DNA of 37,625 bases, taken from assembly GCF_016650035.1 (NCBI RefSeq), contig NZ_JAENWM010000034.1, positions 1 to 37,625 on the forward strand. The letters are read 5' to 3'. The notes beneath the pieces were generated by a model. It ran no database searches, had not been told where the DNA came from, and worked only from the letters and a program-made list of their open reading frames with translations. A program made the translations under genes and the position numbers. The stretch is from Clostridium sp. (GTDB taxonomy: Bacteria; Bacillota; Clostridia; Clostridiales; Clostridiaceae). Positions 17,548-31,893 of the stretch are shown here, in pieces (within the stretch, counting starts at the first letter, position 1; each line of letters starts with the position of its first letter).

Positions 17548-18942
17548 TTAAATAATTCCTGCAGCCCATAGTGCCCACGTAGTTGCAAAGGATACGATTC
17601 CCCCTACAAACGTGGCCCCACCGAATGAAATAAGCGCACCCTTTAAGCTCATCTTGGATAATGATGTAACTACCCAAAAATAACTACTGTTTACATATTT
17701 AATAATTACAGAACCAGATGCACCAGCTAACATTGCAGCTTCAGGTGACAACCCTAATTGCCCAATCATCGGAGCTACTAAAGATGCTGCTGTGATACAA
17801 CCTACTGTTGTTGATCCGGTTATCATATTCCCTATAACACCGATAATAAATGGTAGTAGTATTGGTGACATACCTGTTGTAGCAACCCAAGTAGTTATTG
17901 CGTCTACGGCTGGAGTACCCTTTAAAATCGCACTTAATGATCCCCCTAAACCAGTTACAACTAGAATCATTGCGGAAGTTCTTAAACCATCTTCTACCCA
18001 TTTATTCTTAGCATCTATCTTCTGATCCTTATCTGTGATATTCGAGTACGATAAAAGCACTCCTATAGCTATAGCAACTACTGGCCAACCTAGAAAAGCG
18101 AAAATTGGTTGTAGAAAGTTATCTTTTGGTAATGCCAATGAAATAATACTCTGTGTTGCAATCAAAGCTACTGGAACCAAAATAGGTGCATAAGATCTTA
18201 ATGCCGATGGTGGTTTAATTCTTGATTGCACTTTAACATTAGTTCCTGTTTCTAATGTTGCTGAAACTTCATCATCTAAAAAAGAATTACCCATAAATTC
18301 AGTAGATGGAGGTGATACTATTCTTGGCCCAACTACATATTGACCCCATATCCAAGCAGCAATAGACCCAGTAAAACACACAACACTACCCCATAAAATT
18401 AATTTACCAATGTCTGCATGAAGTAATGCTGCTGCTGCTAAAGGTCCTGGAGTTGGTGGCACTATTGCATGAGTTAATTGTAGTGAACCAACCAAACCTG
18501 TAGCCATTGTACTCATAGAAACATCCATTACTGCAGCTGCTGAGTGTACTAATGGATTTAAAATAACATAGGCTATATCGGAGAAAACTGCAATACCTAA
18601 AACAAAACCTGACAAAGTTAATGCTAATGGCATTCTTTTTTTACCTACAAATTTAACCATAGATTTAGTTATGGTTTCTATTGCTCCAGTATGTTTTAGT
18701 GCTTCTGCCATTATAGATCCTAGCACTATTACAACACCAATACTTTGCAATGTTTTTCCAAACCCTGTTTCAAAGGCTTCTATAAATTTAGCCATATCCA
18801 CTCCTGGAATGAGTGCAAAGCATATTACTGGTAATAACATAGCAAAAAAAACGTGCCATTTAAATTTTGCAATAAAAAGCATTAGAAAAATGATTATTGC
18901 TAAAAACCCAAAGAGTGTCAACGCAACATTATTAAGAATCAT
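17548..18942 (-). CDS. GntP-family proton-coupled permease
   Basis: 464 residues with about 12-14 membrane helices and GntP-family landmarks. These are the early GFGKTLQSIGVVIVLGSIMAEAL segment, the central HAIVPPTPGPLAAAALLHADIGKLILWG and the late MITGSTTVGCITAASLVAP. Relatives carry gluconate, D-glycerate, D-serine or 3-hydroxybutyrate, all small 2- or 3-hydroxy acids. The cytosolic loop near residues 215-245 is not conserved in the family. It is third in the sigma-54 operon, and its genes suggest a beta-hydroxy amino acid or hydroxyacid as cargo (inference). GAGGGGG precedes the start. Confidence 0.9.
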   Translation of the reverse strand: MILNNVALTLFGFLAIIIFLMLFIAKFKWHVFFAMLLPVICFALIPGVDMAKFIEAFETGFGKTLQSIGVVIVLGSIMAEALKHTGAIETITKSMVKFVGKKRMPLALTLSGFVLGIAVFSDIAYVILNPLVHSAAAVMDVSMSTMATGLVGSLQLTHAIVPPTPGPLAAAALLHADIGKLILWGSVVCFTGSIAAWIWGQYVVGPRIVSPPSTEFMGNSFLDDEVSATLETGTNVKVQSRIKPPSALRSYAPILVPVALIATQSIISLALPKDNFLQPIFAFLGWPVVAIAIGVLLSYSNITDKDQKIDAKNKWVEDGLRTSAMILVVTGLGGSLSAILKGTPAVDAITTWVATTGMSPILLPFIIGVIGNMITGSTTVGCITAASLVAPMIGQLGLSPEAAMLAGASGSVIIKYVNSSYFWVVTSLSKMSLKGALISFGGATFVGGIVSFATTWALWAAGII

Positions 18943-18983
18943 TATTAATCCCCCTCTAAATAGTATTTATTTTAATTTTAAAT

Positions 18984-20141
18984 CTAATTGTTTAAGTATG
19001 TTTCAGCCACCGCTTTTGCAGCTGTTCCAAGCTCCACATTATATCCTAATTCAAATAATGTCATTTCTATAGCCCCCATAACTGCATATATATCCAATTC
19101 ATGAATTGAGCCAAGATGTCCTATTCTGAAAATTTTCCCTTGTAGCGTTTGAAGCCCACCACCTATGACTACGCTGTATTTTTTATGTAATATGCTAGCT
19201 AGCTCTTTATATTTTATTCCATCTGGCATATTAATAGCGGTTACTGTATCTGAGGCGTATTGTTCCTCTGAAAACAAAGTTAGCCCCATTTCTTTTACTG
19301 ATTTACGAACAGCCTTTGCCACTTTGGTATGTCTTTCCCATACATTTTCAATACCTTCTTCTTCAATGACAGTCAATGCCTCTTTTAATCCGAATAACAA
19401 TGTTGTTGCGGGAGTATAAGGGAATTGATTTTCTTTCATTTTATCTTTAACAGCTTTATAGTCAAAATACCATTTAGGCATTTTTGATTTTTCTATAAGC
19501 TCCCAAGCTCTCTCACTTACCGCTACAATACTCATTCCTGGTGGCAACATAAGCCCCTTCTGTGAAGCAGTAATGGCAACATCTACGCCCCATTCATCCA
19601 TTTTAAATGGTAAACAAGCAAATGAACTAACCACATCAACAATTAACACCGCAGGATGTCCACTTTGTTTCATCATCTTTCCAACACTTTCTATATCATT
19701 TGCAATTCCAGTGGTTGTCTCATTTTGAGGTAAAAAGACTGCCTTTATCATTTGAGTAGTATCATTTTTAAGGATCTCTTCAATTTCTTTAGCCCGTACA
19801 GCCTTCCCCCACTCCTTTTGAATTTTGATAACGTTTACGTCATAGATATTTGCAATAATTGCCACTCTTTCACTAAATACGCCTTGACATACTGTAACTA
19901 TCTTATCTCCTGGTGAAAGAAGATTCACCACAGCAGATTCTAAAGCTCCGCTACCTGAGCTTGGGAAGATCAAAATATCATTATTTGTTTGAAGTAATTT
20001 CTTTAATCCTTTTACACAATCTGCTACTATTTGCTCGAACTCTGCCCCTCTGTGATTAATTAATGGTTTTGAAAGACTTCTTAGTATACGGTCAGGTATA
20101 TTAGTAGGACCTGGAATTTGTAGAAACTGTCTTCTTTCCAT
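18984..20141 (-). CDS. Class V aminotransferase (alanine/serine/aspartate-glyoxylate type)
   Basis: 385 residues, fold type I PLP enzyme. Seen are the N-terminal IPGPTNIPDRIL, SSGSGALESA (61-70, phosphate cup), Asp169 in VDVVSSF, and the Schiff-base Lys195 in TASQKGLMLPPG. The C-terminal domain ends with FRIGHLGSIHELDIYAVMGAIEMTL. The family transfers an amino group between glyoxylate/glycine and alanine, serine or aspartate; ureidoglycine-glyoxylate enzymes are also close. It lies 13 bp after the threonine aldolase with an AAAGGAGAG site. An aldolase that makes glycine beside a glyoxylate-type aminotransferase implies a shared glycine/glyoxylate step. Confidence 0.88.
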   Translation of the reverse strand: MERRQFLQIPGPTNIPDRILRSLSKPLINHRGAEFEQIVADCVKGLKKLLQTNNDILIFPSSGSGALESAVVNLLSPGDKIVTVCQGVFSERVAIIANIYDVNVIKIQKEWGKAVRAKEIEEILKNDTTQMIKAVFLPQNETTTGIANDIESVGKMMKQSGHPAVLIVDVVSSFACLPFKMDEWGVDVAITASQKGLMLPPGMSIVAVSERAWELIEKSKMPKWYFDYKAVKDKMKENQFPYTPATTLLFGLKEALTVIEEEGIENVWERHTKVAKAVRKSVKEMGLTLFSEEQYASDTVTAINMPDGIKYKELASILHKKYSVVIGGGLQTLQGKIFRIGHLGSIHELDIYAVMGAIEMTLFELGYNVELGTAAKAVAETYLNN

Positions 20142-20154
20142 ATTTTTCTCTCCT

Positions 20155-21195
20155 TTATAAGTTATCTAAAATTTCTTCAACCACTTGAACAACTTGTTGA
20201 AGATGCTGTTTTTCGATACCATAGTGAGTAACCATCCTAAATGATGTTTTAGAGATTTGTTTTGCCTTAATTCCTCTTTTCATAAGTTTTTCTAAGAAAT
20301 CATCAATTGTAATAGGAATTCCCTCCACAGACCCAGTAATTATATTCGTGTCTATTCTTTTTGCATCTACTTTTAGTCCTGAAATTTTTGCCAAAGCCTC
20401 CCCTAATATTTTGGCGTATCTATGATCAATCTCCAATTGTGGCATCATAGTTTTTAGAGCTATAATACCAGGGGCAGCTAAAAAGCCTGCTTGTCGATAT
20501 CCTCCACCTATTCTTTGTTTCATCCATCTTGCTTTTTTTATGATGTCCTTATTACCAGCAAGGATTGCTCCAAATGGTGAACTTAGACCTTTTGTTAAAG
20601 CAAACATTACTGTATCTGCATTTTTTACAAGTTCCTTAACTGGAACCTTAGAAACTACTGCTGCATTGAAAATCCTAGCACCATCTAAGTGAACGAGTAT
20701 ATTATTTTTCTTAGCTAGCTCGCAAACATTATTTATATTATCTAACGGAACAATAAAACCTGCATTAAGGTTATTTGTGTTTTCTATGCAAATTAGGGAG
20801 GTTTTCGCTCTTTGAATTCCTTGTTCTTGTATTAACCCTTCTATTTTATTAATATCATATATACCATTTGGCACTTCTATAGGCCTTGTTTGAACTTGTG
20901 ATAGCGCTGCAAGCGCACCCACTTCTAAATTATAGATATGAGATGTATCACCTACAATAACTTCTTCTCCGCGGTTAGTTAATGTCATAACAGCAATTTG
21001 ATTTCCCATAGTTCCAGACGTAACAAAAAGTGCATCTTGTTTCCCTAAAATATCTGCTGATATTTCTTCAAGCTTTCTTACGGTTGGATCTTCTCCCATG
21101 ATGTCATCCCCAACCACAGCTTTATACATCGCCTCTCTCATTTGTTCCGAGGGTTGCGTTACAGTATCAGAACGTAGATCAATAAATTCAGTCAT
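20155..21195 (-). CDS. ltaE: Low-specificity L-threonine/allo-threonine aldolase
   Basis: 346 residues, PLP-dependent beta-eliminating lyase fold. IDLRSDTVTQP opens the protein; VGDDIMGEDPTV (28-39), VTSGTMGNQ (58-66), the H-x-Y-N segment with His86, LDGARI (170-175) and the Schiff-base Lys202 in LTKGLSSPFG are all present. The enzyme cleaves L-threonine, L-allo-threonine or related beta-hydroxy amino acids to glycine and an aldehyde. The longest frame begins 42 bases earlier; the ATG at 21195 follows an AAGGAG site by 6 bases and matches the family start. It is first in the operon, 94 bp from a sigma-54 promoter. Confidence 0.92.
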   Translation of the reverse strand: MTEFIDLRSDTVTQPSEQMREAMYKAVVGDDIMGEDPTVRKLEEISADILGKQDALFVTSGTMGNQIAVMTLTNRGEEVIVGDTSHIYNLEVGALAALSQVQTRPIEVPNGIYDINKIEGLIQEQGIQRAKTSLICIENTNNLNAGFIVPLDNINNVCELAKKNNILVHLDGARIFNAAVVSKVPVKELVKNADTVMFALTKGLSSPFGAILAGNKDIIKKARWMKQRIGGGYRQAGFLAAPGIIALKTMMPQLEIDHRYAKILGEALAKISGLKVDAKRIDTNIITGSVEGIPITIDDFLEKLMKRGIKAKQISKTSFRMVTHYGIEKQHLQQVVQVVEEILDNL

Positions 21196-21288
21196 TGCGT
21201 CTCCTTCCCTTTCTATTTTTAATCTTCTTACAGTCAAATATTATCATAATATTTTCGGATAATTATTTTTTTCACAATATTATATAAA

Positions 21289-21304
21289 GCAAAAGCCGTG
21301 CCAA
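21289..21304 (-). promoter_or_regulatory. Sigma-54 promoter of the island 1 operon
   Basis: Minus strand TTGGCACGGCTTTTGC has the invariant GG and GC with exactly 10 bp between them. It lies 94 bp upstream of the aldolase start. Its -24 half is part of the 3' arm of the terminator for the activator gene. Confidence 0.9.
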
Positions 21305-21317
21305 CGTGCGGCACGGC
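21295..21317 (-). terminator. Terminator of the activator 1 gene, overlapping the sigma-54 promoter
   Basis: GCCGTGCC and GGCACGGC form a perfect GC-rich 8-bp stem with a 7-base loop, followed on the minus strand by TTTTGCTTT. It is 73 bp after the activator's stop codon. Confidence 0.8.
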
Positions 21318-21341
21318 TCTTTTCAACAGATTCGTTTCTTA

Positions 21342-21402
21342 TGTTGCAATTGTTGAAACATATATGTTTACACGTGAAACGTTTTTGTTTCATTTTGAAA
21401 CA
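21342..21402 (-). promoter_or_regulatory. Upstream activator sites (three palindromes) for activator 1
   Basis: Three inverted repeats share TGAAAC/GTTTCA halves: TGTTGCA-N5-TGAAACA (21342-21360), GTTTACACGTGAAAC (21366-21380) and the perfect TGTTTCATTTTGAAACA (21386-21402). They lie 38-100 bp upstream of the sigma-54 -24 box. The last covers the activator's own stop codon. Confidence 0.7.
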
Positions 21403-23309
21403 TTCAAATTATACTTTTTCATTTTTCTCCATAACGTTGTCCTAGATATCCCTAATTCTTTTGCCGAAACATTTATAATACCTCTATTCTGTTCTAACAC
21501 TAATTTAATAGTTACTCGTTCTTCGTAATTAAAATTATTAACCGTTAAATCATTATTAGTCATATCTCTTACTTTCATATCAATATCATTTTCCTTGTTG
21601 TCTATAGTAAAAAATCTGTTGCTAATGTCCTCTAATTGAATATATACCTTTTTTGAAACAACCATTAACCTCTCAATAAAGTTTCTAAGTTCCCTAACAT
21701 TTCCTGGCCAATCATATGTACTCACATATTCCATAGCTTTAAAGCTTAATGTAATTTTAGGCTTATCCAATTTACAACTGTAATAATCTATAAAATGACT
21801 TATAAAATATGATATATCTTCCTTCTTTTTTCTTAGTGGAAGTAATTCTATTTTTAATATATTGACTCTGTAATATAAATCTTCTCTAAAACTCTTTTCT
21901 CTAACTAGATTGAAAAGAGTCTTGTTAGTAGCTGCAATAACCTTTACATCAATTGGTATAACTTTGTTATCTCCAATTCTCATAACTTGCTTTTCTTGTA
22001 ATACCCTCAATAATCTTCCTTGTAATAAAGGATTCATTTCCGCTATTTCATCTAAAAAGATTGTACCTGTATTAGCTAGCTCAAACAATCCTCGTTTACC
22101 TCTTCTATCTGCTCCAGTAAACGCACCTGGTGCATAACCAAATAGTTCAGATTCCAATAAATTCTCTGGAATTGCCGCACAGTTAACTGCTACAAAAGGT
22201 CCATTTGCCCTATCACTATAGTTGTGAATACTCTGAGCCATTACTTCTTTGCCGGTTCCAGTTTCTCCCTCTATTAAAATTGTTGAATTAACTTTTGCAT
22301 ATTCCTTAGCAACCCTTATAATTTCTTCTTGCTTTCTGCTACATCCGATAAAGTCATTAAATGTATATTTTGCATAATGACCTGATAATGTGATTTCTCT
22401 TCTTATCTTTTCCTCCATTTGTTGAATCTTATTTACATCTTGTATTATAGCCAAAGCATCAACAACTTCATCATTAACCCTTATGGGTATTTTTGAAACC
22501 ATTACCTTTTTGTCATTTATATTTTTTATAACTTCAGTTTCTTCAATACCACTATAAAGTGTATCATAAAGCTGAATCTCTGGTACTACATCACTTATAT
22601 GTTTTCCGATAACTTCTTTTCTTCTAATATTTAGCAATTTTTCAGCAGTATGATTAAAAATTCTTATATATCCTTCTTTATCAATTGAAATAATACCATC
22701 ATTTGAGTTTTCTACTATAGTTCTAAATCTTTCACCTTTTTTATTTTCTTCACGAGTCGCTATTCCTACTCTTCTTGCTTCTTGTATAGCACTAATAATA
22801 GCTTCTTTTCCTGTCTTTATGACAATAGGTAGCACACCATACTTCAATCCGTAGCGTACAATAATTCCTCCCCCTATGGCCACTTTAATATTATTTTGAG
22901 AAACTGCCAACATTTTTTCTTCTACTTCCCTTTCGTTTGCTACTTGATATATTGGTAGTTTTAATTTGGCTATCTTTACAAAACTCTCACTCGCTGGAAA
23001 CATATTATCAAAGGCTATTATTGCAACACTTTTATCTATCTCTTCAGCTTCTTTAAAAGCATTAAATATATCTATAGATGTGACTGGAATAGGTACAGTA
23101 GGTATCTTTAATCCACCACTTTTTAATAGAAGCTGAGTACCACCCCTAGCAATGATAACATCATATCCTTCTCCTTCATATTCTTTCGCTAAAGCAAGAC
23201 CTCTCGCCATAGAACCTTCTATAATATGTATATCATCTTGAAATCCCTTAGATGCTAATTTAGCTATTTTTACTAAATCTTTTGGTATTATTATTGCTAT
23301 CTTTAGCAT
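21390..23309 (-). CDS. Sigma-54-dependent activator 1 (PrpR_N-PAS-AAA+-Fis HTH)
   Basis: 639 residues. A PrpR_N sensor domain (about 1-185) contains VIIARGGTQLLLK and VAIGGGIIVRYGLKYGVLPI. A PAS domain (about 192-300) follows, then the AAA+ domain (about 319-545) with Walker A GETGTGKE (348-355), the sigma-54 contact loop GAFTGA (395-400), Walker B TIFLDEIAEM and WPGNVREL. The C-terminal Fis-type helix-turn-helix reads LGISRTTLWRKMKK. PrpR_N domains bind small carboxylates such as 2-methylcitrate in propionate regulators. AAGGGGG precedes the start. The gene reads directly toward the aldolase operon, whose sigma-54 promoter overlaps its terminator, so that operon is the obvious target. Confidence 0.92.
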   Translation of the reverse strand: MLKIAIIIPKDLVKIAKLASKGFQDDIHIIEGSMARGLALAKEYEGEGYDVIIARGGTQLLLKSGGLKIPTVPIPVTSIDIFNAFKEAEEIDKSVAIIAFDNMFPASESFVKIAKLKLPIYQVANEREVEEKMLAVSQNNIKVAIGGGIIVRYGLKYGVLPIVIKTGKEAIISAIQEARRVGIATREENKKGERFRTIVENSNDGIISIDKEGYIRIFNHTAEKLLNIRRKEVIGKHISDVVPEIQLYDTLYSGIEETEVIKNINDKKVMVSKIPIRVNDEVVDALAIIQDVNKIQQMEEKIRREITLSGHYAKYTFNDFIGCSRKQEEIIRVAKEYAKVNSTILIEGETGTGKEVMAQSIHNYSDRANGPFVAVNCAAIPENLLESELFGYAPGAFTGADRRGKRGLFELANTGTIFLDEIAEMNPLLQGRLLRVLQEKQVMRIGDNKVIPIDVKVIAATNKTLFNLVREKSFREDLYYRVNILKIELLPLRKKKEDISYFISHFIDYYSCKLDKPKITLSFKAMEYVSTYDWPGNVRELRNFIERLMVVSKKVYIQLEDISNRFFTIDNKENDIDMKVRDMTNNDLTVNNFNYEERVTIKLVLEQNRGIINVSAKELGISRTTLWRKMKKYNLNVSK

Positions 23310-23526
23310 GAGTTACCCCCTTACATTTCTGCAACTAGATTACATATTCTAGCCTAATAACATATATCCTTTATTTATAGCAATAAGTTTTATTATTAAG
23401 GTGCAAATATTTATTGGAGTAATTACCAATCCATTTTGTGATTTTGGGGGTTTATATTTGGAGAAGTAACTTTCCACGGGAGCTTCTCCTTTCCATTTCA
23501 CTAAAAAATAAAGGATAAAGGAACGT

Positions 23527-23975
23527 AGCTCTTCATCCTCTTCTGGCATTCCTATTTTAGTTAAAATGCTTTTTAGAACTTTTAGAATTATTTCTATAAA
23601 ATTTTCATTTCCGAGTTCAGTTAAAAGGTGCGATTCCATAAGAATTAATTTGATTATTTCACGATTTTCTGATATTAAGCTAATCCTATCATAAAGAATA
23701 TATTCCAGTTTCCCTAAGGGACTTAATTCCTTTGAATCATTTATTGTTTGTTTTAATGTGCTAAATAAAATAGGTTCAATCCCTTTTAAAAATATTTCTT
23801 GTTTAGAATAAAAATTTCTAAATAATGTTACTTCTTATATTTCTGCTGCTTTTGCTATTTCTAAAGTAGTACTGGCATTAAACCCTTTTTCAACAAATGC
23901 CGTCATAGCTGCTTCTAATATTTGTTTCATTCTATCCTCTTTATTTATTCTTTTTTTTGATTTTTTAGTTTCCAT
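23527..23975 (-). pseudogene. Broken duplicate of tetR
   Basis: Nearly identical to the first ~450 bases of the intact tetR gene (about 95% by eye). A TCA codon has become TAA (23837-23835) inside the helix-turn-helix, between AAEI and EVT. The C-terminal 35 codons are missing: homology stops right after the DEEL sequence and unrelated DNA follows. The internal Met that follows the leader is now Ile. An open frame from an internal ATG (23639) continues past the break to 23349, but it lacks the DNA-binding domain and is not a plausible repressor. I see no gene in 23310-23526, only a GGAGAAG/CTTCTCC hairpin near 23460-23490. Confidence 0.9.
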
Positions 23976-23984
23976 ATTCCCTCC

Positions 23985-24016
23985 TTATGTATGTAGGTAA
24001 GCACTAACATACATAA
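23985..24016 (-). promoter_or_regulatory. Altered operator in the duplicated tetR region
   Basis: TTATGTATGT-N12-ACATACATAA: perfect 10-bp arms, now 12 bp apart rather than the 4 bp of the functional operator. The adjacent promoter keeps TTGACA and the 17-bp spacer but has TACCTT for -10, so it is probably weak. Confidence 0.55.
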
Positions 24017-24054
24017 GGTATAATAAGTAAGATTTAATGTCAACGTTTTTATAA

Positions 24055-24109
24055 AAATATAAATCACCATAATAACTTAACATCTAAGCTACTATAGTGA
24101 TTTATATTT
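24055..24109. terminator. Hairpin terminator between the tetR relic and the aldo/keto reductase gene
   Basis: AAATATAAATCACCATA (24055-24071) pairs with 24093-24109 with one mismatch. T-runs lie on both sides, and it follows the reductase stop codon by about 70 bp on the minus strand. The left arm belongs to the direct repeat. Confidence 0.7.
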
Positions 24110-24177
24110 TTTATCCTAACATTAGTTTTACACCAAGTGAAAGTAATGCCAATAAATCTGCATCAGCAGCTAAATGA

Positions 24178-25152
24178 TTATTTTAACTCCTCCGTTCTAT
24201 CTGTAGGACTTGGTGGTTCAATAGAGAGCAAAGAAATTTCATTTCTCCATTCATCTGTCATATTTATATCTGTAGCAGCCAGCGATACCTCAAGTTGTTT
24301 AACATTTCTTGCTCCAATAATAGGTGCTGTGACAGATTGATTAGCCATAACCCATGCTATTGCAAGGCTCGCTGGAATAATTCCTCTTTCTTTTGAATAA
24401 GTTACTAATCTTTCAGCGACCTTCGAGTAATTATCTTCACTATAACGCTTCTTATACATCTCACTCTCAATTAAACGTCCACTATCTACCTTATTTGCAT
24501 TCATATATTTCCCTGTGAGAAGACCCGCCCCTAATGGACTATAAGTAATCATCCCTAATTCCTCTTCATCAGCCATTGGTAAAATTTCAACTTCTGCTTG
24601 ACGTTTTACAAGGCTATACATAGGCTGAATACAAGCAAAACTTGATAATCCTTGTTTAGCAGATATTCCTAGGGCTTTTTCAATCTGCCAAGCTGACCAA
24701 TTGCTTACCCCTAGATAAAGAATTTTCCCTTCATGCACTAGGTCGTCCAACACTCTTAAAGTATCTTCAATAGGTGTAGCATTATCAAAATGATGAGCAA
24801 AATAAATATCAACTCGATCTGTTCCAAGCCGCATTAAACTTTCTTCTATAGCTAGTTTTATATGTCTTCTCGATAATCCTTTTGAATTAATATCACTACC
24901 CATCTGACCAAACCCCTTAGTTGTAATGACTAGTTCGTTTCGACATTCTTTAATACATTGGCCTAAGATCTCTTCTGACCTGCCATTGTTGTACACATCC
25001 GCACAATCAAAGAAATTAATTCCCGCTTCTCTACAGTGATTAAACATTGCCTTAGAGGTTTCTACATCAGCCGCTCCACCAAATGACATAGTCCCAAAAC
25101 AAAGATTTGAAACTTTAATGCCCGTCTTCCCTAAAAATTTATATTTTATCAT
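24178..25152 (-). CDS. Aldo/keto reductase
   Basis: 324 residues, (beta/alpha)8 NADPH-dependent oxidoreductase. The catalytic tetrad is visible: Asp49 and Tyr54 (FFDCADVYNNG), Lys79 (ITTKG) and His120 (YFAHH). The cofactor-side motifs YSPLGAGLLTGKY and the C-terminal PIIGARNVKQLEVSL are standard. It resembles the YajO/general stress 69-type groups that reduce small aldehydes and ketones. It is preceded by a good ribosome site (AGGGAGG) and separated from the upstream dehydrogenase by a strong terminator, so it is probably its own unit. A link to the aldehyde made by threonine aldolase is possible but unproven. Confidence 0.9.
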   Translation of the reverse strand: MIKYKFLGKTGIKVSNLCFGTMSFGGAADVETSKAMFNHCREAGINFFDCADVYNNGRSEEILGQCIKECRNELVITTKGFGQMGSDINSKGLSRRHIKLAIEESLMRLGTDRVDIYFAHHFDNATPIEDTLRVLDDLVHEGKILYLGVSNWSAWQIEKALGISAKQGLSSFACIQPMYSLVKRQAEVEILPMADEEELGMITYSPLGAGLLTGKYMNANKVDSGRLIESEMYKKRYSEDNYSKVAERLVTYSKERGIIPASLAIAWVMANQSVTAPIIGARNVKQLEVSLAATDINMTDEWRNEISLLSIEPPSPTDRTEELK

Positions 25153-28614: not shown

Positions 28615-29634
28615 TTATTTAGCTGTATCTTGAATTTCTTTAATAAGATCTTTACCAAATTCAGGTTCATATTTTTCATATATTGGCAACGTAGCTTTCT
28701 TGAATGCCTCTATATCTGCATTATTTATTAACATTCCTTCGGCTTCTATTTGCTTTATTTCATCTTTTGCAAGATTACCCATTTTTTCAAATATCCATTT
28801 TGATACTTCATCACCAGCATCTGTTAGTATTTTTTGCTGATCTGGAGTTAATTTATTATAAACAGCCTTACTCATAAGTAAAGGTTCAGCAACATGGATA
28901 TGATGTGTTATTGAAAGATATTTCTGCACTTCATAAAATTTTTGAGTTACAATATGAGTAGTTGGATTTTCTTGACCATCAACAGCTCCTAACTGTAATG
29001 CGGAATATAATTCTCCAAAAGACATTGGTGTTGCACTAGCACCTAACATATTAAATGTATCAAGAAAAACTGCTCCACTAGGTGTCCTAATCTTTAGGCC
29101 TTTTAAGTCAGCTGGTACTACAATTGGTCTTTTACTATTTGTTATATCTCTAAAACCATTCTCCCACCAACCAATAGCTATTAAATTTTTCGCCTCTAAT
29201 TTAGTTTCTATCTTATCACCGACTGTTCCATTTAGTACATTTTGTACGTGTTCACTGTCTTCAAATAAAAATGGTAAATTTAATATACCAATTTCAGGTA
29301 CAAAGGTAGACAATAATGTATCTGATGTTAAAACCATATCAACAGTTCCTAATTGTGCACCCTCCACTAGTTCATTTTGTTTTCCTAATTGATCTGATGG
29401 GAAAACCTTTACTTCTATCTGACCATTTGTTTTCTCTGAAACAATTTCAGCAAATTTTAATGATGCTTCTTGATATGGGTGGTCAGGATTTCCTGTATGT
29501 CCAAGTTTTAATACTATCTTTTTGCCATCGTTTACAGCTGGTGCAGATGTCGAAGTTGTTTTTCCACAACCAAATAAAACTGAAGTTGTCATTACTACAG
29601 ATAATAAAATTCCAAAAATACGTGCTTTTTTCAT
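28615..29634 (-). CDS. dctP: TRAP transporter solute-binding lipoprotein, DctP
   Basis: 339 residues. A lipoprotein signal peptide ends in a lipobox with Cys23 (VLFGC), so the protein is anchored outside the membrane. The mature part is DctP: KLGHTGNPDHPYQEASLKFAEIV, GAQLGTVDMVLTS, LPFLFEDSEHV, and PADLKGLKIRTPSG with the arginine that usually binds a substrate carboxylate. The cargo is therefore probably a mono- or dicarboxylate. It is the first gene after a sigma-54 promoter and activator site, and leads the dctP-dctQ-dctM-dehydrogenase operon. Confidence 0.93.
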   Translation of the reverse strand: MKKARIFGILLSVVMTTSVLFGCGKTTSTSAPAVNDGKKIVLKLGHTGNPDHPYQEASLKFAEIVSEKTNGQIEVKVFPSDQLGKQNELVEGAQLGTVDMVLTSDTLLSTFVPEIGILNLPFLFEDSEHVQNVLNGTVGDKIETKLEAKNLIAIGWWENGFRDITNSKRPIVVPADLKGLKIRTPSGAVFLDTFNMLGASATPMSFGELYSALQLGAVDGQENPTTHIVTQKFYEVQKYLSITHHIHVAEPLLMSKAVYNKLTPDQQKILTDAGDEVSKWIFEKMGNLAKDEIKQIEAEGMLINNADIEAFKKATLPIYEKYEPEFGKDLIKEIQDTAK

Positions 29635-29709
29635 AATAATCCCCCTTAAATTTAGTAACTAGGTTTACAAACTGAATATCTCTTTTTTAGGTGCTTATTA
29701 ATTATATAA

Positions 29710-29725
29710 GCAATATACGTGCCAA
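29710..29725 (-). promoter_or_regulatory. Sigma-54 promoter of the TRAP operon
   Basis: Minus strand TTGGCACGTATATTGC: consensus -24 and -12 with GG-N10-GC, 76 bp upstream of the dctP start. No good sigma-A promoter is visible here. Confidence 0.92.
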
Positions 29726-29765
29726 TGGAATTGCGTTGTTTTATTTACTTCTTATTTCAAGATTC

Positions 29766-29799
29766 GTTTCAATGTGTGTATTTTATATAAATATGAAAC
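29766..29799 (-). promoter_or_regulatory. Activator 2 upstream site, GTTTCA-N22-TGAAAC
   Basis: GTTTCA at 29766-29771 and its complement TGAAAC at 29794-29799, separated by 22 bp, 41 bp from the -24 box. The same arrangement occurs before the CoA-transferase promoter. Confidence 0.7.
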
Positions 29800-29802
29800 A
29801 GA

Positions 29803-31731
29803 TTAATCTTTAGATATAAGACGCCATAAAGTTGTCCTACTTACTCCTAATCTTTTGGCTATCTCTTCCTTCTGATTAGGAAATATTTGTTCCAAGGTGC
29901 ATATTAATTTTTTAGGTATTTTATCTGAACTTAATATTTGACCAGTTTCCATACCATTTTGTTTTAATATATCATTAAAAAATCTGTCCTTTTGTATAGA
30001 CCTAACTATTATTTTTCTTATTACCTCTTCATTAAAACGTACTGCCTCTTTAAAAAACAGTGCAAATCTTTCAACTACATTCTGTAATTCACGTACGTTT
30101 CCTGGCCATGAATATAGTTTTAAAATTTCTAGGGACTCTATTGGAATTTCAGCTTTATATTGGCTAATATTAAAATGTTTTTCTAGAAAAAATAAAAAAA
30201 GTCTTATTACATCATCATCACGATTCCGTAGAGGTGGAATATTTATCTGTAAAACATTTAACCGATATAATAAATCACTCCTAAAGTCACCTGGGTTTTT
30301 ACCTTCTAAATCTCTTCCTGTGGCAGCAATTATTCGCACATCTATAGGTATTATTCTATCCCCTCCAACTCTCATTATCTCTTGTTCCTGTAAAACTCGA
30401 AGCAATCGACTCTGAAGTGAAATGGGTAATTCACCTATTTCATCTAATAGCATAGTACCACCATGAGCTATTTCAAAAAGTCCGGTTTTTCCACCTTTTT
30501 TACTTCCAGTAAATGCGCCTTCATCATATCCAAAAAGTTCACTTTCAAGTAAATTTTCTGGTAAAGCAGCACAGTTTATAGCTACAAATGGTTCATTCTG
30601 CCTAAGGCTATAATTATGAATGCTTTGTGCAAATATTTCTTTACCAACTCCAGTTTCTCCATATATCAATACGTTAGATGATGCTTTAGAATAAATTTTA
30701 GCTTTTTTTATTTCTTCTATTAATGTTTTTGATGTTCCTATGATATTTGTAAATTTAGATTTTGATGTAAATCCCCTTTTCATATTTAACAATCTGATTT
30801 TTTGTTCAGTCTGCTGTATCTCAGATACAGCATGTACTATTGCTACCGCACCTATTATTTCACCATCGATTTCAATAGGGACTCTATTTGTAACGATTTC
30901 ATTATGATTAACCTGCTGAATAACTCCTAATTCAGGTTCAGCCGTTTTAAGAACCTTGTTCAGATGACATTGAGGCATAACTTTGGAAATATGATGACCC
31001 ATAGCTTTGATTTGATTAACTCCAAATATTTTTTCTGCTGCTGGATTAAATGTAATTATATTACCATTTTTATCTGTTGCAATTATTCCACTGGGCGTAA
31101 ATTCAAGAATTGCTTCAATAAACTTTGATTTTTCTCTTTCTATTCTTAAAGCTATAATAAATTCTTTAGCATATTTTATAGAATTTATTATCCCTTCCTC
31201 ACCAGGGTATATTAAAACACTTGGAATCCCAAGTTCTCTTGAAATTTCATTTGATAAGCTAGCACCTATTACTACACTACCTGTACTTAATTTTTGTAGC
31301 TTTATTTTAAGCTCTTCTGGCGTTTCAAAATAAATATAGCTAAAATTAACTTTAAATCCTTCTCCAATGTTTTGTAATGCATTAATCAATTGATTATTCT
31401 CAGTTTTATTTTCACTTTCAAATTTTACAATAACAACATTATTGCCATATTTGCTTGCAAGCATCATAGCTTCAATATAATCTAATATTGTTAATTTAAT
31501 GGTAACTACAGGTACATCTACTGCATTTTTTATAATCTCGGCGTTAGCTCCACCCCCAACAAATATTTCTACTCCATCTTTAATTGCTTTCCTTGCTTTG
31601 TCAGTTAACTCTTCCATTAACCCTTCTATTAGTATGCATTCCACCGTGGGGTCTTCTATTTTAATTATTGCATTGAGTACAAGAAAATTAAGTTTTTTGT
31701 AAGTGAGGCATCCAATTTTTATTTTATTCAT
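29803..31731 (-). CDS. Sigma-54-dependent activator 2 (PrpR_N-PAS-AAA+-Fis HTH)
   Basis: 642 residues from the ATG at 31731, chosen because GGAAGGTG lies 6 bases ahead; the frame opens 17 codons earlier with no such site. PrpR_N-like sensor (about 1-195, with EIFVGGGANAEII and GSVVIGASLSNEISRELGIP), PAS (about 202-305, GIIATDKNGNIITFNPAAEKIFG), AAA+ (about 325-560, Walker A GETGVGKE, GAFTGS in place of GAFTGA, TMLLDEIGEL, WPGNVREL) and a Fis-type helix-turn-helix, LGVSRTTLWRL. It lies between the two operons it probably controls, both with GTTTCA-N22-TGAAAC sites. A sigma-A-like -10 (TATAAT) lies upstream near 31800. GAFTGS is a common functional variant. Confidence 0.9.
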   Translation of the reverse strand: MNKIKIGCLTYKKLNFLVLNAIIKIEDPTVECILIEGLMEELTDKARKAIKDGVEIFVGGGANAEIIKNAVDVPVVTIKLTILDYIEAMMLASKYGNNVVIVKFESENKTENNQLINALQNIGEGFKVNFSYIYFETPEELKIKLQKLSTGSVVIGASLSNEISRELGIPSVLIYPGEEGIINSIKYAKEFIIALRIEREKSKFIEAILEFTPSGIIATDKNGNIITFNPAAEKIFGVNQIKAMGHHISKVMPQCHLNKVLKTAEPELGVIQQVNHNEIVTNRVPIEIDGEIIGAVAIVHAVSEIQQTEQKIRLLNMKRGFTSKSKFTNIIGTSKTLIEEIKKAKIYSKASSNVLIYGETGVGKEIFAQSIHNYSLRQNEPFVAINCAALPENLLESELFGYDEGAFTGSKKGGKTGLFEIAHGGTMLLDEIGELPISLQSRLLRVLQEQEIMRVGGDRIIPIDVRIIAATGRDLEGKNPGDFRSDLLYRLNVLQINIPPLRNRDDDVIRLFLFFLEKHFNISQYKAEIPIESLEILKLYSWPGNVRELQNVVERFALFFKEAVRFNEEVIRKIIVRSIQKDRFFNDILKQNGMETGQILSSDKIPKKLICTLEQIFPNQKEEIAKRLGVSRTTLWRLISKD

Positions 31732-31893
31732 AATATTCACCTTCCTCAAATTAATATGTAAATATAAATTTAATTGTAACATATTTATTGGAATTTTAAA
31801 TTTATTATATCATGAAAAAAGTTCATATAACCAAAATAAATAATGTGATTAAGGAACCATTTACCCTTTGTTTCTTACACCATATTTTTGATT

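Follow-up and report, generated by a model that had tools for sequence, protein, structure and literature searches.

Predicted hairpin and sigma-54 promoter share bases between an activator gene and the next operon in Clostridium sp.

Results

The window is the whole stretch of DNA analysed here, 37,625 nucleotides from Clostridium sp. (NCBI RefSeq assembly GCF_016650035.1, contig NZ_JAENWM010000034.1, positions 1 to 37,625). On the minus strand, we found a gene for a 639-aa PrpR_N - PAS - sigma-54 AAA+ - Fis-type HTH protein (activator 1, 21390..23309), which is the activator gene expected upstream of the hairpin described below. The first gene of the downstream operon encodes a GntG/threonine-aldolase-family PLP enzyme (20155..21195, minus strand, ATG at 21195), and it is followed on the same strand by genes for a class V aminotransferase, nearest to BhcA (18984..20141; 418 bits, below the 650 cut-off), and a GntP-family permease (17548..18942). 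The gene set at 17548-21195, with its threonine-aldolase-type, BhcA-like (below cut-off) and GntP members, suggests a hydroxyaspartate- or glyoxylate-related pathway. TGTTTCA/TGAAACA-type dyads lie at 21340..21403 (either strand), and a perfect dyad at 21386-21402 overlaps the activator 1 stop codon. Judged from their sequence and position, these dyads are probably binding sites (UAS) of activator 1; by reading, similar dyads are also present in the orthologue loci L043 and L039. Upstream of activator 1, about 870 bases (23310-24177) contain no ORF of 120 aa, and there is a long A+T-rich dyad at 24059-24105. Elsewhere in the window (28615-31782), a second PrpR_N activator gene (activator 2, 29803-31782) is followed in tandem by a sigma-54 promoter (29709..29725, minus strand) and a DctP-type TRAP transporter gene; despite a layout matching that of activator 1, no hairpin was found at the 29709-29725 promoter.

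The junction between activator 1 and the aldolase-family gene holds a predicted sigma-54 promoter, TTGGCACGGCTTTTGCT (21288..21304, minus strand), with its GG at 21302-21301 and its GC at 21290-21289. The GG/GC spacing fits TTGGCAC-N5-TTGCT exactly, and TGGCACGGCTTTTGCT at 21303-21288 is an exact match to TGGCACN5TTGCW, one of two in the window (the other is at 29724-29709). When up to two mismatches are allowed, the window contains 19 matches as compared to 13.1 expected by chance. Across the whole genome there are 8 occurrences of TGGCACN5TTGC and 17 of TTGGCAYN5TTGCW, and the backwards control of each motif gives 0. The genome carries a sigma-54 gene (PF04552, E 5.2e-53), and an enhancer-binding protein gene (PF00158) adjoins the promoter. 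Transcription from this promoter is predicted to start near 21277, with the aldolase-family ATG 82 nt further downstream.

A predicted hairpin, AAGAGCCGTGCCG-CACGT-TGGCACGGCTTTT (21291..21321, minus strand), overlaps this promoter and contains the -24 box within its 3' arm. The stem at 21321-21291 has 13 pairs, a loop of 5 and a predicted energy of -21.5 kcal/mol (z -4.01; 1 of 200 shuffles folds equally well). It starts 68 nt past the activator 1 stop codon, is stable and G+C-rich, as an intrinsic terminator stem should be, and runs on its 3' side directly into the U-tract TTTTGCTTTATATAA (21280..21294, minus strand), which includes the -12 GC and is interrupted by it. The terminator score is 19.6, by the d'Aubenton Carafa formula and threshold. 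A scan of 18000-25000 for terminator-like stems gave 7 sites, three of which are one nested site, as compared to 3.0 +/- 2.0 in shuffles, and 21321-21291 is among them. When the promoter was held fixed and the 40 bases upstream were shuffled, 0 of 500 shuffles reached an equal embedded hairpin. We thus confirmed that, in the window, a hairpin holds the -24 box of a sigma-54 promoter in its 3' arm; the shared letters that the earlier note had pointed out are seen in the sequence, in the fold and in the exact consensus match. That note had described a stem of 8 pairs; the count becomes 13 when A-U and G-U pairs are included, with the first T of TTGGC in the loop.

We found no close relatives of the same genus: among 40 genomes besides the window's own, the best has 42% identity (G038, same order), so the window clade rests on the five closest orthologue loci of activator 1 (53-68% identity). 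All five have a sigma-54 promoter and the start of an aldolase gene downstream. In L043 (activator 67% identical), the composite of hairpin and promoter is kept with altered pairs (GCCGGGCC/GGCTCGGT, -19.5 kcal/mol), and in L040 a different, weaker hairpin lies over the promoter and is equalled by 14 of 500 shuffles. By reading of the sequence and by the shuffle test, the other three (L039, L041 and L045) keep the promoter and have no embedded hairpin that stands out. L039 has a separate hairpin made of UAS-like dyads right 3' of the stop codon (terminator score 16.0), and the best terminator scores before the promoter are -5.6 in L041 and -54 in L045. Hairpin and promoter are therefore not obligatorily coupled among the orthologues; the two signals are separable, since these three loci keep one without the other. 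The suggestion that the signals cannot be mutated independently is not supported as worded. The case that the earlier note had named as refuting, a promoter kept with the hairpin absent, is found here; it speaks against an obligatory coupling and leaves the composite itself standing.

To ask how often the arrangement recurs, we looked at 95 activator junctions, of which 59 have a downstream promoter and 11 have it clearly embedded in a hairpin. The shuffle test covered 57 of those 59 promoter junctions (L158 and L160 were outside it), and all 500 shuffles were beaten in 9 of the 57: the window, L043 and seven loci with LevR-type activators. The LevR-type set comprises 17 places found by protein search and not chosen for a hairpin. 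A sigma-54 promoter lies just downstream of the activator in 10 of the 17, L158 and L160 included, and all 10 of these promoters are within a hairpin (-16 to -28 kcal/mol); these copies are related to one another, so the counts are not independent events, and other LevR-type activators, such as that of the CD0283/CD0284 junction (PMC7438776), may differ. The remaining 7, among them L157 and L162, have no sigma-54 motif within 600 nt downstream; the 70 nt past their stop codons fold only weakly (-2.7 to -7.6), and the next gene may start within 38 nt of the stop. In two of these 7 (L153 and L155), the possible next start is 38 nt past the stop, and the activator and downstream genes are probably one operon. 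Where the promoter is present, its distance from the stop codon is 27-53 nt in nine loci (46 nt in L150 and 52 nt in L161, for example) and 127 nt in the tenth, L160. Four LevR-type activators checked whole (L148, L154, L192 and L160) all have sigma-54 AAA+ and PRD domains, and three have EIIA-man; the downstream genes checked are of the mannose/sorbose-type PTS.

Single composites were found in other settings. One follows a response-regulator-type activator whose frame is split in the record and precedes a PAS-GGDEF gene (L174), and another lies between a PAS-type activator and a dicarboxylate carrier gene (L253). In a C. difficile genome (G914), 1 of 16 TTGGCAYN5TTGCTT sites is embedded, behind a PRD-protein gene (L232), and its counterpart in G916 (L241) is also embedded. 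At L166:1496-1534, the 5' arm is a mirror image of the complete sigma-54 promoter, -12 element included, such that two promoters stand head to head within 39 bases.

We then compared the paired bases across copies. In 12 aligned copies, every one of the 132 pair cells is paired, and both partners have changed in 7 of the 11 pairs (0/500 shuffles), which is compensatory change beyond chance, as expected of a conserved RNA structure. Twenty cells are changed on both sides as compared to 5.4 in shuffles (0/500), the covariation score is 0.543 as compared to 0.219 in shuffles, and only 33-51% of cells stay paired when the partner is slid along. This was a check that the earlier note had proposed, and its outcome is that the stem bases co-vary in relatives. 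When we considered just the last -24 base and the five spacer bases, we found 90 of 90 pairs in 17 rows (15 distinct), with the register given by each row's predicted fold, and 0 of 20000 arm permutations did as well. Ten of the 17 rows are LevR rows not selected for a hairpin; L090, L166 and L174 were found with a pattern biased towards sites with an upstream arm, and L232 and L241 were picked for folding. In the 12-copy set too, rows are partly related and some were chosen for folding; sequences, not events, are counted throughout. Because much of the covariation falls in the spacer, where the promoter consensus prescribes no bases, selection seems to act on the hairpin in its own right, and the joint change of paired bases suggests that both signals matter.

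Across the order (225 genomes), an upstream RTGCC arm at 3-12 nt is present at 23 of 2185 TTGGCAYN5TTGCW sites. The reversed-arm control in the same 225 genomes gave 6 sites, one of which is the window's own hairpin, leaving 5. The difference between 23 and 5 is significant by Fisher's test (p 4e-4; 22 and 5 without the window on both sides), with the reservation that related genomes are not independent, and several of the 23 sites sit inside ORFs and are probably chance. Across the phylum (398 genomes), the arm pattern matched 39 times as compared to 4 for the backwards control. Of 29 matches that were folded, 17 span an open frame of at least 100 aa and only L166, L174 and perhaps L167 and L163 are composite-like. 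Two further loci (L024 and L028) have a long-loop version of the hairpin, matched by 4.2% and 1.6% of shuffles, respectively. Five PRD/PTS-EIIA loci (L096, L097, L104, L105 and L111) with a 6-7 bp stem round the -24 box were rejected as composites, because a U-tract is missing from all five and an A-C mismatch is present in four.

A covariance model search, run with stricter filters that lose weak matches, found 20 places at E<=0.01 in 18 of 218 genomes. Thirteen of these keep the sigma-54 motif, and 12 of the 13 follow a gene for a sigma-54 activator or PRD protein, three of which (L250, L257 and L263) were recognised by their PRD/EIIA half only. The model had been built with six of the 13, namely the window and five LevR copies, and without L249, L250, L251, L253, L257 and L263. 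The thirteenth, L252, lies behind an HPr gene and has no activator gene directly upstream; its hairpin also reads as a consensus sigma-54 promoter, which could be chance or an unlinked sigma-54 target. The other 7 of the 20 places are terminator-like hairpins without the motif.

The bases next to the stem bear on termination. T occupies 39 of 51 spacer positions beside the stem in the 17 embedded rows, as compared to 41 of 120 in 40 non-embedded promoters. The terminator score is above 0 in 14 of the 17 embedded rows and below 0 in L149 (-2.7), L150 (-4.3) and L160 (-11.2). The -12 GC breaks the U-tract in every row except L166, where the stem extends past the -12 element. A separate terminator-like hairpin with a score above 0 precedes the promoter at 18 of 48 non-embedded junctions; the other 30 lack one, so termination at such a junction is not a general need. 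By reading, the terminator-like hairpin is a UAS-dyad-like palindrome in seven non-embedded loci (L039, L003, L042, L047, L048, L008 and L044), where enhancer and terminator may share letters.

Discussion

We think it likely that the junction downstream of activator 1 is a composite cis-element, in which the activator's intrinsic terminator and the next operon's sigma-54 promoter occupy the same ~35 bases, so that the activator transcript would end on that promoter. In this reading, the terminator stem would have the G+C-rich -24 box as its 3' arm, and the U-tract would come from the T-rich -12 side. With these two parts, a sigma-54 promoter is already half a terminator, and a complementary arm upstream suffices to complete it. 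Polymerase arriving from the activator gene would be released on the promoter, which would leave the operon silent (insulated), and activator bound at the intervening dyads would then fire the waiting sigma-54 holoenzyme and turn the operon on. As the hairpin lies upstream of the predicted start near 21277, it should be absent from the operon's own mRNA and act only on upstream transcripts (or as DNA). Like an intrinsic (Rho-independent) terminator, the window element has a G+C-rich stem after a stop codon and then a T-rich stretch; unlike a plain one, its U-tract is broken by the -12 GC and its 3' arm is constrained by sigma-54 recognition.

The layout agrees with what is known of sigma-54 control in this group. 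According to the main text of a survey of Clostridiales (Nie et al. 2019, PMC6615313), activator genes usually adjoin their target operons, the promoter consensus is TTGGCATNNNNNTTGCT, and UAS dyads lie upstream of the promoter; adjacency and consensus are alike in the window, and the dyads there are probable counterparts. A word search of that main text, supplements aside, gave no terminator, hairpin, tandem or stem-loop. For C. difficile, Table 4 of PMC7438776 lists a LevR-type activator and mannose-type PTS operon (CD3280/CD3279) with the promoter TTGGCATACTTTTTGCTTT, and its CD3279 entry gives neither a mapped start nor a fold change. This promoter is identical to that of L232, which sits within a hairpin and is flanked by a PRD-protein gene upstream and a sorbose-type IIB gene downstream, and on this identity we infer that L232 is the CD3279 counterpart; the word 'hairpin' is absent from the main text of PMC7438776. 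No such overlap is described in the available text of PMC6615313, PMC7438776, PMC6510779, PMC12316311, PMC2941500, PMC8262876, PMC10864463, PMC4591121 or PMC3844500, and among the matches listed, no title concerns the -24 box of a sigma-54 promoter as a stem arm; a prior description of the overlap may exist.

Overlapping promoter and terminator signals, with both in one DNA stretch, exist in other bacteria. We know of no sigma-54 case with the -24 box as a stem arm. Annotation usually treats promoters and terminators as distinct features; here one short stretch appears to be selected for both; sigma-54 promoters can thus pass for plain terminators in annotation, and the reverse. Covariation in the spacer, where the sigma-54 consensus sets no base, separates promoter pressure from hairpin pressure. 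If it works as proposed, the composite would be a compact natural insulator. It also suggests how only 27-53 nt can suffice between an activator gene and the next promoter, and it provides a natural setting in which polymerase collision at a sigma-54 promoter can be tested.

Other readings of the overlap account for parts of these data. The earlier note had proposed negative feedback, by interference of activator expression with promoter occupancy. Polymerase running out of the activator gene would displace or block the sigma-54 holoenzyme, such that more activator transcription would give an emptier promoter. The geometry would allow this, as termination would put an elongating polymerase on the -24 and -12 boxes, and the short distances from stop codon to promoter at LevR-type loci (L160 aside, at 127 nt) are compatible with it; however, three orthologues keep the promoter without a hairpin, and we regard such feedback as unlikely. 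In E. coli, according to the available text of PMC4591121, bound but inactive sigma-54 holoenzyme at intragenic sites had no measurable roadblock effect, which also speaks against it, although that is the opposite direction of interference.

The hairpin could instead serve the promoter or the RNA other than by termination, as a DNA cruciform, a protein-binding palindrome or a 3'-end stabiliser. The promoter of L160, 127 nt from the stop codon, still has its hairpin, which may therefore serve the promoter and not the gene end, and three copies score below 0 as terminators. In contrast, the paired spacer bases vary, whereas a protein-binding palindrome should keep its sequence, and the enrichment of T right past the stem fits termination; we consider a role of this kind improbable. 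Coincidence, meaning a terminator with a chance likeness to a sigma-54 promoter or a promoter with a chance likeness to a terminator, seems to occur, as at L252 after the HPr gene and in the 7 model places that are terminator-like hairpins without the motif. It is a very unlikely account of the window, where the hairpin separates an activator gene from an operon start and dyads lie in the same gap, where L043 keeps both signals with changed pairs, and where the arrangement recurs at LevR loci. That the stem is a by-product of two mirrored, facing sigma-54 promoters fits L166, where the 5' arm mirrors the whole promoter, and is rejected as a general reading, since an opposite-strand sigma-54 motif (score >=10) is present in 1 of 17 rows, L166 itself; we give it almost no weight.

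Taken further, the composite of terminator and promoter might be a recurrent, separately evolved form of activator-operon wiring, in which the waiting holoenzyme and the terminating polymerase physically interact and so couple 3'-end formation of the activator transcript to the readiness of the operon. We offer this extension tentatively and think it more doubtful than not. In a wider form, the operon's promoter or enhancer dyad would be reused as the terminator of the activator gene. Near 1398-1440 of L007, the -24 box directly follows a terminator U-tract, which may be a halfway stage between separate and embedded signals.
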